Assembly (NCBI GenBank): GCA_027485615.1
Contig: JAIXQS010000011.1
Span: forward strand, 46,966-110,965
DNA length: 64,000 nt
Direction of reading: 5' to 3'
Origin: Verrucomicrobiaceae bacterium
GTDB taxonomy: Bacteria; Verrucomicrobiota; Verrucomicrobiia; Verrucomicrobiales; Akkermansiaceae
In this document: positions 12,337 through 60,517 of the stretch, one piece after another
Numbering within the stretch: the stretch's first letter is position 1
Layout: the number at the start of each line of letters is the position of its first letter
Translations under genes and position numbers: made by a program
The notes under the pieces: generated by a model
The model's database searches: none
The model's input: the letters and a program-made list of their open reading frames with translations, nothing else
What the model was told of the DNA's origin: nothing

Positions 12337-14811
12337 TCATTTTGTGACGATCATTTCTACGGCGACGGGGGAGAGCTTTGCGGACTCCAGCCAGACGCTC
12401 ATGTGGCCTGTGGGAGGCGCGGCTTTGCCACGGTGTCCGTTCCGGCGGAGAAAGCTTTTCACGGCGATGGTGACCTTGCCGGACTCGAACTCGGGCATGA
12501 GATCATTGAGGATGAGCGCGCCGCGCGTCTGGCCGCCGCTCTTGTAGTAGCCGCCGGTGGCTTCGCTGACGAGCTTGCCGTTCAGGTAGAGGGCGTAGCC
12601 TTCGCCCGACCAACCGTGGCCCGCGCCGCCGACCACGATGCGGTAGCGGTGATCGGAATCGAGCTTGGGCACCTCGAAGGTCTGGCGCATAAGCAGGACT
12701 TCCTTGTCCCAGAGTGTGGCGGGCGTGACGTTGCATCCGCAATGGGGAACATCGCAGCTCGGGATCAGCGCCTCAAGCTTGCCGTCATTCTGGCCGAAGG
12801 GAGCCTTGGCGGTTTTCCATCCGGCTTTCGCGGCATCGAAATCAGCGGCGAACCAGTTTTCCGAACCGGCGGGGAGCGTGACGGGGCGGTAGCGGTCGCC
12901 TTCCGGCCCGGTCTTTTTCTCGGCGGGATCGAAGGTCAGGAACGACCACTCGGCGTCTTTCATCTCCGGGCCGAAGGGTTTCCAGTTGAACTCATCAATG
13001 CCGACGAGTTCGTAGAAGGAGATCATCTGGTCGAGCTGGGACTCGATGATCGGCGAGGGCTTGGCGGGCTTTTCACCGCTGAGGATGTTCTCCAACGGCA
13101 GGCCGCGGCGCAGGTAGGAGGGGACGTTGGCGGCGCTCAGTGCGAACTCCGGCAGCAGCCCGTCCATGATGATGGGCTTGATCGCGGGGATCATGGGTTT
13201 CACCTCGGAGGCGGTGGACGGCTGCATGTAAGGCGGGGCGTCCACCGCCTTCACCATGCCGGGCTCGGGGTATTCCGCCTTGCCGCCTTTCAGCCCGACC
13301 ATCGCGCGGCCGAGGGCGTCGCCGACGAGCATGTAGGTCTCGGCGTTGTGGTTGTAGTGGTAGCCCTGGTTCTTGGGGGAAATGCTGGAGTCGCGCCAGA
13401 ACGGGCGGGTATCGACGGTTTTCACGGTTCCGGCGAGCTCGGGGTGGCGTTTCGGATCGGAGACGTTGAGCTGCGCCTGGGCGATGAGCAGGGCGTTGCC
13501 CTCGGTGCCCTGGCTGCCGCAACCGGTGCCGACCACGAAATGGGCTTTCGGCGCGTTGAACTCCTTGCGCCATGCCTTGATGAGATTCGCGAGGTTTTCC
13601 TCATAGCGGGCGGTGTGTGCCGCGCTGCCGCTGTCCTTGTGACCCTGCCACCACGCGAAGCCCGCCACTTCGTATCCCTGATCCTTGAACTGCGGGTAGC
13701 GCTCGCCGAAATTGTCCAGCACGGCGCGGATGGAAGCGGTGTAGTCGTCGTATTGCTTGCCGGCGTACCACTCGCCCTCCTTTGGTTTCCTGATCGTGCC
13801 GTCGGCGTCCATGGTCTCGCCGTAGCCGGGATATTCCGTGCCTTCGAAGGTGTAGCGCTCGCTGCCGGGCGGCAGGACATCCCAGCCGAGGCTGCGGTTG
13901 CCGATATCGGCCTTCATCACGATGACCGGCTCGTCGTGGAAAGTGCCCATCACGAAACCGAAGCCCAGCTCGGGGCCGAAGGTGGGGCCGCAGGCATCGA
14001 CGCCGTGTGGGGCGCTGCTGCCCTTGCCCATGTAGGCGTCGTTGAGGAAAACGTCGGGGCGCTTCACCCATGAGCCGTCCTCCGCGCGGAGATATCGGAA
14101 GCGCCCCAGCTCATCGACCACGTGGCCGAGATCACCGAAGGCCCGGAGATCCACCTGCTCCAGCCACAAGGCTGCCGATCCGCCTTTCAAGTAGGTGATG
14201 CGCAGCGGGGTGCGCTGGCCTTTTTTCAATGCGACCTTGGTGACGGTGGCGGCGCCTTCGCCGTCCTTGCGGTAGGCTTCCCTGCCATCGAGTTCCGCGA
14301 TGGCCTGCGCGCTGGATTCGAAACCGGCGTGAAGCTCGTAGTTTCCGTCGAAGGGGACATCGATGAACGCGTCCACGACCACATGATGCGGGCCGTCGAT
14401 GGAGGGAAGCGTGGCGGAGGTGTCGCCGAGGGCTACGCTTCCTTTTTTCGCGGGCAACATTTTCAAAAGATCCGCCTTGGCATCGTAGGCACCTGCGAAG
14501 ACGGAGGCGGTGGCGTCATGCACGCCGAATTTCAGCAAGGCGGAGCTTGCGACAGGCAGCGCGACGTTCTGCGCGGTGGGATCGGCGGAGAGGAAAATTT
14601 TCGCGTATTGCGGGGCGCCCGGTTTCACGGCGCCGAAGCCGAGCGAGTTCGACTGGCCGGACTGGATGTAGATCTTCACCGGCTTGTCGGTGGCGGCCGG
14701 TTTCGCGTCGGCGGGCGGGAGATCTACGGGGATCACCTGGGCGGCGGCATGGAGCGCCGAGAATGCGGCGAGAAAAATCAGGGCGAGGCCTGTGCGGTGA
14801 TTCGGTTTCAT
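12337..14811 (-). CDS. SASA/SGNH-type carbohydrate esterase (sialate O-acetylesterase / acetylxylan esterase-like)
   Basis: 824 aa; signal peptide; KIYIQSGQSNSLGFGAV (GQSN block); GFAWWQGHKDSG; VVGTGCGSQGTEGNALLIAQAQ; C-terminal carbohydrate-binding-like region. Confidence 0.78.
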   Translation of the reverse strand: MKPNHRTGLALIFLAAFSALHAAAQVIPVDLPPADAKPAATDKPVKIYIQSGQSNSLGFGAVKPGAPQYAKIFLSADPTAQNVALPVASSALLKFGVHDATASVFAGAYDAKADLLKMLPAKKGSVALGDTSATLPSIDGPHHVVVDAFIDVPFDGNYELHAGFESSAQAIAELDGREAYRKDGEGAATVTKVALKKGQRTPLRITYLKGGSAALWLEQVDLRAFGDLGHVVDELGRFRYLRAEDGSWVKRPDVFLNDAYMGKGSSAPHGVDACGPTFGPELGFGFVMGTFHDEPVIVMKADIGNRSLGWDVLPPGSERYTFEGTEYPGYGETMDADGTIRKPKEGEWYAGKQYDDYTASIRAVLDNFGERYPQFKDQGYEVAGFAWWQGHKDSGSAAHTARYEENLANLIKAWRKEFNAPKAHFVVGTGCGSQGTEGNALLIAQAQLNVSDPKRHPELAGTVKTVDTRPFWRDSSISPKNQGYHYNHNAETYMLVGDALGRAMVGLKGGKAEYPEPGMVKAVDAPPYMQPSTASEVKPMIPAIKPIIMDGLLPEFALSAANVPSYLRRGLPLENILSGEKPAKPSPIIESQLDQMISFYELVGIDEFNWKPFGPEMKDAEWSFLTFDPAEKKTGPEGDRYRPVTLPAGSENWFAADFDAAKAGWKTAKAPFGQNDGKLEALIPSCDVPHCGCNVTPATLWDKEVLLMRQTFEVPKLDSDHRYRIVVGGAGHGWSGEGYALYLNGKLVSEATGGYYKSGGQTRGALILNDLMPEFESGKVTIAVKSFLRRNGHRGKAAPPTGHMSVWLESAKLSPVAVEMIVTK

Positions 14812-40252: not shown

Positions 40253-40954
40253 CTAGTTCAGTTCCTCCCGCCTACCGAGGGTGATCGCGAGACCGAGCGA
40301 GCCGACGAACACGAAATAACAGGCGAGCAGCTCCAGGTAACTTTTGCAGATACGCGGAATCTCCGGGGAAAAGAAATCGCCGAGAGCTGCCTCCCAGAAC
40401 TGCGGTGCGCCGATCACTCGGTTGAAAACATAAATGATCAGCAACGCCGCCGCGATGAGGCCTGCGCCCGCGTGGTGTCCCATCGTTTCGAAAAAACGCA
40501 GCATCACCCGGCGATGGCGGATGATCGTGATGAGCGCCGCGCCAAGCAACGCGCCGATCACCCATGCATCGGGAAACGGCCACTTCAGGATTTCGGAGAT
40601 GAAATCCTCCAGCTCGCCGACCAGCGCCGCCGCGAGCCCGAACGACAACACACGGCACACGGCGCGGCGGTGCCCGGAGTGTGCCATCGCGCCGGCCATG
40701 ACCACCGTGGCCGCCGCCAGCAGCGCGGCCTGCATCAGTTCCACCGTCCCCCGCTCCAGCGGTGCGCCCGGGCGGTTCGGCAACCAGGCGGGCAGCAGGA
40801 TCGTCACGGAACCTGCGCAGATCAGCAGCCCGCGCAGCAGGGTGGTTTTCCACCCGCCCGGACCGGAGCTTCGGTTGTCTGGTTTCGGCACGAACCTGAC
40901 TAGTCCATCCGACACACCGCACGCAAGGCGGATGAGCGGGAATCCACGGTTCAC
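40253..40954 (-). CDS. Hypothetical multi-pass membrane protein
   Basis: About 5 hydrophobic segments; directly upstream of the acyltransferase on the same strand. Confidence 0.6.
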   Translation of the reverse strand: MNRGFPLIRLACGVSDGLVRFVPKPDNRSSGPGGWKTTLLRGLLICAGSVTILLPAWLPNRPGAPLERGTVELMQAALLAAATVVMAGAMAHSGHRRAVCRVLSFGLAAALVGELEDFISEILKWPFPDAWVIGALLGAALITIIRHRRVMLRFFETMGHHAGAGLIAAALLIIYVFNRVIGAPQFWEAALGDFFSPEIPRICKSYLELLACYFVFVGSLGLAITLGRREELN

Positions 40955-40963
40955 ATTCCATTT

Positions 40964-41154
40964 TTCACCGCAAAGTCGCAGAAGCCGCAGAGGGACGCAG
41001 AGAAAAGCCCATCATTCACTTGGAATCGGCAACCGCTTCCTGTTTCCGACATCTCATCCCACTGAGCCAACGAAGCTTACCTTCCCTCATTTCATTTCTT
41101 CACCCAAAAGCAAAGCTCCGCGCTCCTTTGCGGCCTTTGCGCCTTTGCGGTGAA
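40964..41154. repeat. Inverted-repeat locus 1, module CGCAAAGG
   Basis: Left TTCACCGCAAAGTCGCAGAAGCCGCAGAGGGACGCAGAGAAAA; right arm reverse complement TTCACCGCAAAGGCGCAAAGGCCGCAAAGGAGCGCGGAG. Confidence 0.85.
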
Positions 41155-41258
41155 TCCCTCCATTCCGGTCGCGTAGATCGTGATGAGCGGGAATCGCCCG
41201 CCGCCGGGATTTTTTCGGGTTTGCCGGAATGCCCCGCCTCTGCCAGGTTCCCCCCGCT

Positions 41259-42934: not shown

Positions 42935-43006
42935 TGATCCCGACAGGAATCGAACCTGTATCTAAAGTTTAGGAAACTCTTGTTCTATCCGTTGAACTAC
43001 GGGACC
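42935..43006 (-). tRNA. tRNA-Arg (anticodon CCT)
   Basis: Minus strand GGTCCCG TA GTTCAACGGATAGAAC A AGAGT TTCCTAA ACTTT AGAT ACAGG TTCGATT CCTGT CGGGATC A; full cloverleaf, CCA not encoded. Confidence 0.95.
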
Positions 43007-44030: not shown

Positions 44031-44173
44031 TTAACCGCGAATGGACGCGAATGGACGCGAATCGAAGGTGGCAATAATGGCTATGCCATCCTCTGGAGGG
44101 AGCAGTTATCGAAAAACAGCATCTGAACCGGACTCATGAAATTTCGCGTTCATTGGCGTTCATTCGCGGTTGA
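44031..44173. repeat. Inverted-repeat locus 2, module CGCGAATGGA
   Basis: Left TTAACCGCGAATGGACGCGAATGGACGCGAAT; right arm reverse complement TCAACCGCGAATGAACGCCAATGAACGCGAAAT. Confidence 0.88.
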
Positions 44174-50116: not shown

Positions 50117-50260
50117 GAGAAATGGGGAAATGCCCTGAACGGGCTAAGGAAAGGGTCGATACACCGGGGCGGGCGGGGAGGCAAGCGCGGGAATCGGTTG
50201 GAAAAGCAGGGTTCCTACACTAGGACACGGCACTAGAAAACTGATACGAGTGGGCAGAAA

Positions 50261-50386
50261 TTGAACCGCCAAGACGCCAAGTTCGCCAAGGAAGACCAAT
50301 ATGAGGGTTCAGAAGCCGGTTTCCACTCATCATTCTTTCGGTTTTCCATCCGATTGGCTTGGCGCACTTGGCGTCTTGGCGGTGAA
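50261..50386. repeat. Inverted-repeat locus 3, module CGCCAAGN
   Basis: Left TTGAACCGCCAAGACGCCAAGTTCGCCAAG; right arm reverse complement TTCACCGCCAAGACGCCAAGTGCGCCAAG. Confidence 0.88.
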
Positions 50387-50444
50387 TATGGTTTTTCATC
50401 CGGGATTTTCAGATAATCCCTCCCTAATGGAGGAACCCTGCGGA

Positions 50445-59449: not shown

Positions 59450-60517
59450 ATGCATCGCTCCTCCATCAACATCGCGCGACTTGTTTATCTGCTTGTCTGT
59501 CAGGCCGCTGCGGTTGCGATCGCGCTGAGCACGAAAGGCACCGTGATCGAAATGTCGGTCGCGACCGGCCTGCTGATCGGTCTCGCCATCGGGATTTTTT
59601 TCATCGGGATCGAGAGGCTCACCAAGGGGTTCACCCTACGCGGTTTCTCCACGGCCACCTTCGGTCTCGGTGTCGGCCTGTTTTGCGCGTGGCTGCTGAC
59701 CCGGGTGGAAATTTCCAACCTCCTGGAGCTCGCTTTCCGCGACAAGATCGATAAGACGGAATACGGCGAGACGATGGTGAACTCGTTGCGGCTTGCGCTT
59801 GATGTCACGCTTTTCGCCAGTTTCGGGTTCCTCGGCGCGGTGCTCGCCCTCCGCAGCAACCGGGACGATTTCGCGTTCATCATCCCCTACGTCCGTTTCC
59901 GCCAGGACGCCAGCTCCGGCCAGCCCATCGTGCTGGATGCCGAAACGATCATGGACGGGCGCATCCTCGGGCTGCTTTCCTCGGGTTTCATCAGCGGGCG
60001 GCTCATCGTCGGCCAGTTCGTGCTGGAGGAAATCCAGACCCTTGCCAATGAAAGCTCCAACGGCCTGCGCCAGCGCGCCCAGCGCGGCCTCGGGAATCTT
60101 GAAAAAATGCAATCCTCTCCCGATATCCAGGTTTCCATTCACGACACCAGGATCCTCACCGAAGAGCAGACCCTGCATTCCCGCCTGATTGAGACGGCGA
60201 AATTCTACGGGGCCCGCCTTCTCACGCTGGAGGACAGCCTGGCGAAGATCGCGAAGTTGCAAGGTGTGTCCGTGCTCAATCTCAACGAACTCGACATCGC
60301 GCTGAGTCCCTCCATCGCCATCGGCGAGCGGCTGCGCGTCCCATTGGTAAGGCCGGGCAAGGAAGAGCACCAAGCGGTCGGATATATGCCGGACGGCACG
60401 ATGATCGTCGTAAACCAGGCCGCCGGTGATATCGGAAACACGGTGGACGTGGTGGTCGTCACCAGCCTGCAGACCGCAGGCGGCACGCTCATTTTCGCGG
60501 AGCCGATCCGTTCCTAA
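59450..60517 (+). CDS. PIN/TRAM-domain membrane protein (YacL-like)
   Basis: N-terminal TMs; VLDAETIMDGRILGLLSSGFISGRLIVGQFVLEEIQTLANESSNGLRQRAQRGL; LLTLEDSLAKIAKLQGVSVLNLNEL; C-terminal TRAM. Confidence 0.88.
   Translation: MHRSSINIARLVYLLVCQAAAVAIALSTKGTVIEMSVATGLLIGLAIGIFFIGIERLTKGFTLRGFSTATFGLGVGLFCAWLLTRVEISNLLELAFRDKIDKTEYGETMVNSLRLALDVTLFASFGFLGAVLALRSNRDDFAFIIPYVRFRQDASSGQPIVLDAETIMDGRILGLLSSGFISGRLIVGQFVLEEIQTLANESSNGLRQRAQRGLGNLEKMQSSPDIQVSIHDTRILTEEQTLHSRLIETAKFYGARLLTLEDSLAKIAKLQGVSVLNLNELDIALSPSIAIGERLRVPLVRPGKEEHQAVGYMPDGTMIVVNQAAGDIGNTVDVVVVTSLQTAGGTLIFAEPIRS

Follow-up and report, generated by a model that had tools for sequence, protein, structure and literature searches.

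Paired module arrays in the window

In the window, the whole stretch of 64,000 nucleotides that was analysed, there are three loci at which two short arrays of repeated modules face each other across a spacer. The first of these, locus 1, has the following features, with the search or comparison on which a feature rests in brackets.

40931..40944, + strand: left 14-nt direct repeat GATGAGCGGGAATC, candidate target-site duplication of locus 1, single in the relative G007
40945..41181, no strand: insertion of 237 bp relative to G007, containing locus 1 (comparison of the window with G007)
40964..41002, + strand: left arm, 39 nt (repeat search)
41003..41115, no strand: spacer, 113 nt, no match to the GxxExxY gene described below
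41116..41154, - strand: right arm, 39 nt (repeat search)
41182..41195, + strand: right copy of GATGAGCGGGAATC (repeat search)

The arms of locus 1 are 82% complementary, and both begin at their outer ends with TTCACCGCAAAG, from which modules of the type CGC(A/N)(A/G)AG run inward at a spacing of about 8-10 nt, the left arm reading TTCACCGCAAAG T CGCAGAA GC CGCAGAG GGA CGCAGAG. The earlier note had described such facing arms across an unrelated spacer, with a common outer end and drifting CGC modules, and was right in both respects. As an inverted pair the locus scores 43, where the cut-off for the pairs listed in the genome scan was 34. A gene remnant in the spacer was considered and ruled out, there being no similarity to the GxxExxY gene.

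The closest relative by secA is G007, with 94% DNA identity. In the comparison of empty sites that the earlier note had proposed, G007 lacks locus 1 and carries GATGAGCGGGAATC in single copy at the empty site. Between the arms and the GATGAGCGGGAATC repeats are 19 and 27 nt of extra sequence, therefore the ends of the arms are not the ends of the 237-bp insertion. Locus 1 is the sole case of an insertion of this type with extra sequence outside the arms, and the exact ends of such elements rest on few cases.

The two sister loci have the following features.

44033..44061, + strand: left arm of locus 2, CGCGAATGGA flavour, downstream of ffh
44143..44171, - strand: right arm of locus 2 (repeat search)
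50206..50224, + strand: left outer terminal inverted repeat GCAGGGTTCCTACACTAGG of the MITE containing locus 3 (repeat search; copy comparison)
50265..50290, + strand: left arm of locus 3, CGCCAAG flavour, upstream of secA
50291..50357, no strand: spacer of locus 3, sharing 94% identity with that of a second copy in the same genome (G000:C179)
50358..50383, - strand: right arm of locus 3 (repeat search)
50423..50441, - strand: right outer terminal inverted repeat of the MITE around locus 3 (repeat search; copy comparison)

Placed at 44.0 and 50.3 kb by the earlier note, these are real pairs with other module text, the arms of locus 2 being 90% complementary with CGCGAATGGA modules and those of locus 3 96% complementary with CGCCAAG modules. 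The extent first given to the loci holds for the arms, but locus 1 sits inside a larger insertion and locus 3 inside an unrelated inverted repeat. In place of locus 2, G007 carries an element both of whose arms have another flavour, with roughly equal spacing from ffh, and it lacks locus 3 as well. Rfam matches a tRNA gene at window positions 42935-43006, on the minus strand.

The unit around locus 3 (window 50206-50441) is 235 bp long with 19-nt terminal repeats, GCAGGGTTCCTACACTAGG, that are unrelated to the modular arms it encloses. Its second copy, at about 59961-60195 of G000:C179 (92% identity over 236 nt), is flanked by an 8-bp direct repeat, CGGGTGCC, and as the homology reaches the outer 19-nt repeats and the second copy has this direct repeat, it was probably an ordinary MITE carrying the modular element that moved to C179. 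Sequences in other genomes that are related to the interior of locus 3 for the most part stop near the arms (query 12-147). The candidate target-site duplications are the 14 nt at locus 1 and these 8 nt, which belong to the outer MITE, with none clear elsewhere.

Module arrays in the genome and its relatives

The arms recur well beyond a single locus, a matter on which the earlier note had made its idea of a mobile or structural family depend. A scan of 460 kb of the genome gave 18 inverted pairs with a score of at least 34, and none in a block-shuffled control, whilst over the whole genome the module pattern has 45 matches against 4 for the reversed pattern. Taking 1.03 Mb (30% of the genome) together with the loci hit by the pattern, there are 19 distinct modular pairs, three of which hold a GxxExxY gene. 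The arms are non-palindromic module arrays of differing text, alike in both arms of one locus and unlike between loci, and the flavours found in the genome are CGCAAAG/CGCAGAG, CGCGAATGGA, CGCCAAG, CACGAAG and CGCAGATGGA. The hairpins predicted for arm pairs, near gene ends, have energies of -52 to -84 kcal/mol. Whether the pairs are intergenic is poorly judged by overlap with open reading frames, a test that is uninformative because ORFs of at least 200 aa cover 85% of this GC-rich genome. A search of the arms against Rfam gave no family, only sub-threshold chance matches of microRNA type.

Arms above control were not found in G018, the only genome of the genus without GxxExxY that was checked. 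On several contigs of G008 there are more than 10 dispersed matches to the extended arm GAAGCGAAACGCGGAGGACGC of the metH cassette of the genus, as if this flavour had been amplified, and G009 has several copies of the sub-flavour ACCGCCAAG(A/G)CGCCAAGCGC.

The gene between the arms

Modular repeats occur near GxxExxY genes, which served only as a lead for testing. The genome has five genes of this named family (PF13366/TIGR04256), to which no role has been assigned, and each of the five is enclosed by inverted modular arms of a flavour of its own. For 34 loci of this genome and its relatives, the score of the upstream flank against the reverse complement of the downstream flank has a median of 48.5, compared with 19 when flanks of different loci are paired. 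A broad set, drawn from many phyla with one genome per species, comprised 80 GxxExxY loci, 75 of them with enough flank, and 51 of the 75 reach a score of at least 32, as do 5.9% of the pairs made up of mismatched flanks. At about one third of the loci no arm pair exceeds the threshold, some of them showing weaker arms by eye and some none. Flavours outside the CRC type, ACAGGATTAACA for example, are found in distinct protein lineages.

A full cassette is about 450-500 bp long and consists of an AT-rich outer end, a left arm of 3-4 short modules, a GxxExxY gene of 116-130 aa and an inverted right arm of the same text. Within the broad set the gene is oriented with both neighbours at 51 loci and against both at 3. 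The median distance from the upstream stop codon to the left arm is 2 nt, and that from the right arm to the start codon of the next gene is 14 nt. The distribution of PF13366 is patchy, with 1 to 12 genes per genome in 111 of the 195 good genomes of the phylum, and no match to GxxExxY was found in a phage collection. No transposase gene was found between any of the modular arms examined.

All three window loci have paired modular arms of one flavour that match the arms of GxxExxY genes in the genome or genus, with locus 1 matching those of one Prosthecobacter cassette equally. Against an all-locus median of 20, locus 1 has its best matches in L263 (Prosthecobacter), with a score of 61, and L001 of the same genome, with 60, locus 2 in L005, also of the same genome, with 53, and locus 3 in L037, which is the pheS-pheT cassette of G004, with 65. 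The assembly, which is 94% complete, has the CGCCAAG arms of locus 3, and a GxxExxY gene of CGCCAAG flavour was not found in it.

In an alignment of 50 GxxExxY sequences E29, D69, E79, K81 and Q93 are invariant and Y97 is nearly so, the conserved motifs being E, D, ExK and the Q of QxxxY. The structure is predicted with a mean pLDDT of 95, and its nearest solved fold by Foldseek is SSO0001, a Cas4 nuclease (4ic1; E = 6e-4, TM 0.59), followed by lambda-type exonucleases. The Cas4 profiles of PADLOC match weakly (E = 1.5e-4), and a search of the PDB by sequence gave no match. The conserved D and (D/E)xK core together with the predicted fold mark the protein as a putative PD-(D/E)XK nuclease of RecB/Cas4 type. 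The gene is under purifying selection, with a dN/dS of about 0.08-0.15 where it can be computed, values that are rough because dS is saturated in most pairs.

Co-variation of arms and protein, and exchange of cassettes

Arm text tracks protein lineage. Over 84 loci the distances between proteins and between arms are correlated (Mantel r = 0.41, reached in 0 of 5000 permutations), and the result is the same after the difference in GC is removed (0 of 2000), the points being partly non-independent because orthologous loci are included. In Bipolaricaulota, Desulfobacteraceae and an unclassified bacterium, arms of CACGAAG flavour accompany proteins that share 77-81% identity, which suggests that the complete unit has been transferred.

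Flank alignments identify two orthologous sites, using gene names taken from reading the translations. Site A is between two parts of metH in eight species. Site B, between pheS and pheT, is shared by five species of the genus, and in a genome of another family this gap contains a cassette of different flavour. At L001 and the seven loci orthologous to it, metH forms two ORFs with the GxxExxY cassette exactly at the split, which separates the homocysteine-binding from the pterin-binding part. At site A the arms of one locus score 60 with each other and 30 with arms of other species, a sum reached in 6 of 20000 permutations, and the consensus hairpin has compensatory changes in 16 of its 27 pairs, thus the two arms have changed in step at one place. 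Site B points in the same direction more weakly (53 within loci against 37 across, 530 of 20000 permutations). The within-locus co-variation on which the earlier note had staked its family is therefore present.

Gene and arms are also replaced or transferred as one block. At L045 and L046 the flanks match up to the stop codon and again from the start codon, and the gene and both arms differ throughout. The pair L048/L049 shows a cassette that is 97-100% identical, with a dS of 0 for the GxxExxY gene, between metH flanks that are 73-95% identical; the block extends about 17-20 nt beyond the arm on its left side and reaches some 70-90 nt into the gene downstream, and homologous recombination of the ordinary kind between metH genes could account for this exchange of a whole cassette. 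Empty sites are also found, with a cassette between radA and a FAD gene in Bacteroides finegoldii (NZ_OY725952.1) where Parabacteroides distasonis (NZ_OY725753.1) has 13 nt, and a cassette between fabD and fabG in Sphingomonas parapaucimobilis (NZ_CP155749.1) where the two genes are nearly adjacent in two other alphaproteobacteria, S. paeninsulae (NZ_CP032828.1) and Sinorhizobium meliloti (CP090106.1).

What the elements may be

We consider it rather likely that loci 1 to 3 are gene-less members of a homing-like family of hairpin-armed cassettes whose gene encodes a RecB/Cas4-type PD-(D/E)XK nuclease, the GxxExxY protein. The arm-gene-arm linkage, the co-variation, the exchange of blocks, the empty sites and the gene-less copies of the same flavour in the genome or genus were all observed and support this. 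The nuclease would recognise arms of its own flavour, either as duplex or as an extruded hairpin, and the break that it makes would let the cassette be copied, in the manner of homing, to a junction that follows a stop codon, whether empty or already occupied. Arm pairs that lack the gene might be mobilised in trans, and template switching within the hairpin could keep the arms alike whilst their text drifts into flavours. Against this reading it has to be said that about one third of the GxxExxY loci lack an arm pair above the threshold, that the insertion at locus 1 does not end at its arms, that CGCCAAG arms occur here with no gene of that flavour in the assembly, that one element of G007 combines two flavours, and that the movement of locus 3 within this genome can be explained by its outer MITE. 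The preference for same-strand operon junctions reflects selection at least in part, and perhaps mostly, as such insertions leave both neighbours translatable.

An element that works at the level of RNA, in the manner of the IVS of 23S rRNA, is an unlikely alternative. The arms would be co-transcribed and form a hairpin that RNase III cuts, the ORF would be removed or separated and the operon mRNA would work, leaving the nuclease as a passenger or as a spreader at the DNA level only. The orientation of the gene with its neighbours and the closeness of the arms to the adjoining genes both speak for it, mismatches on the sense strand are more often G.U than A.C (90 vs 62, p = 0.03), the S23/IVP ORFs of the genome share the build, and RNase III does cut IVS hairpins (PMC4990558). 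The excess of G.U is small, however, and could be a bias of base composition, the orientation is explained by selection for operon-neutral insertion, and a hairpin alone leaves unexplained why module text follows protein lineage.

It is improbable that the elements are ordinary MITEs of a DDE transposase, with GxxExxY as passenger and the modules as subterminal transposase sites. The 14-nt direct repeat at locus 1, the 19-nt terminal repeats around locus 3 and the 8-bp direct repeat of its second copy speak for this, but loci 1 and 2, like those GxxExxY cassettes that were inspected, have no terminal repeats of this kind, most relatives of the locus 3 interior end near the arms instead, and the modular arms examined enclose no transposase gene.

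The earlier note had suggested REP/RAYT-like or MITE-like elements with variable text and conserved build; a dispersed, MITE-like family of that description does exist, and its membership of the REP/RAYT group did not hold up. That the arms are a REP or REPIN family moved by a RAYT, an IS200-like Y1 transposase, we regard as very improbable. The repeats are short, inverted, paired and dispersed and the genome has Y1_Tnp genes, yet of the three that were read, the one RAYT-type gene with flanking repeats (in G000:C161) carries GGGGAGCACACGCGCCCTCGCGTG and not modular arms, the two others (C12 and C3) have no matching flanks, and none is flanked by the arms that the earlier note had proposed to look for around such genes. 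A REP is moreover short, palindromic and fairly fixed in its text, unlike these arms with their tandem modules of free text, and the gene between modular arms is consistently GxxExxY. The GGGGAGCACACGCGCCCTCGCGTG repeat that flanks the RAYT-type Y1_Tnp gene (L258:15064-15700) is dispersed as inverted pairs in both G000 and G007.

Transcription terminators or other regulatory hairpins of the host are scarcely credible as an explanation, for despite the stable predicted hairpins near gene ends the loop of full members holds a conserved nuclease gene, presence and absence differ between close species, and the text has been swapped wholesale at one site.

Comparison with known systems

Several known systems resemble the proposed nuclease cassette in part. 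REPIN/RAYT systems consist of dispersed gene-less inverted pairs and a few genes with the same repeats at both ends (PMC3116915, PMC2817692, PMC3733652), and the cassettes share this split between non-autonomous, gene-less pairs and autonomous, gene-bearing copies. They differ in that the enzyme is a predicted PD-(D/E)XK nuclease and not an HUH Y1 transposase, in that the arms are tandem modules of 8-10 nt with free, co-varying text and not fixed palindromes, and in that gene-bearing copies swap at fixed operon junctions. Homing endonuclease genes likewise have the nuclease as the only gene, and the pattern at L048/L049 would fit their transfer to the corresponding position in a relative with co-conversion of a short tract, though ordinary recombination could also give it; unlike them, the cassette has many unrelated junctions, inverted modular arms, no intron or intein, and a nuclease whose site-specific cutting is putative. 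MITEs have inverted ends, non-autonomous copies and possible target duplication in common with the cassettes, but the ends of a cassette are module arms and not fixed TIRs, and the linked gene is not a DDE transposase.

The IVS of 23S rRNA is an element of about 430 nt with a small S23 ORF in the loop of a long stem of complementary ends and is thought to be selfish (PMC4990558). A small ORF between complementary stem ends is also what a GxxExxY cassette has, but this lies between protein genes and not in a 23S rRNA helix, and its protein is a different one, with a predicted nuclease active site and with arm text that follows its lineage.

No description linking GxxExxY to arms, gene-less copies or cassette exchange was found in the open-access literature, and papers there on S23/PF05635 with repeats contained nothing tying GxxExxY to repeats; the GxxExxY-linked hairpin cassette is a proposal made here. 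As GxxExxY is annotated in many bacterial phyla, its link to arms, repeats and exchange offers a concrete candidate function, and the link would account for many intergenic repeats, a large class alike in build and not in sequence. A stand-alone, Cas4-like mobility nuclease would, if true, be surprising and could bear on the route of Cas4 into CRISPR adaptation.

A broader proposal can be offered tentatively, and with some doubt. Homing-like cassettes of this kind might be widespread, with a minimal Cas4/RecB-type nuclease as the sole mobility enzyme that recognises self-matching hairpins of module arrays, co-evolves with their text, inserts at operon stop codons and mobilises gene-less pairs in trans, the S23/IVS elements then being a second, convergent lineage. 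PF05635 (23S_rRNA_IVP) is a second protein family with the same arm-gene-arm architecture. Of the four PF05635 genes in the genome three were read, and each of these is enclosed by other modular inverted arms (AGAAACTAGAAAC, AAATCCTAAGCACGAAATCC and GGGGGACGGGGGAC).

L212:12439-12921, G000: PF05635 four-helix-bundle gene with its own tandem-module arms
L216:2492-3081, G000: PF05635 four-helix-bundle gene with its own tandem-module arms
L254, near 14457-14774, G000: PF05635 four-helix-bundle gene with its own tandem-module arms

A gap that holds a PF05635 element in G000 is occupied in G007 (L173:10998-11139) by a short element with a left arm of CAGAT flavour and a right arm of CGAATG.
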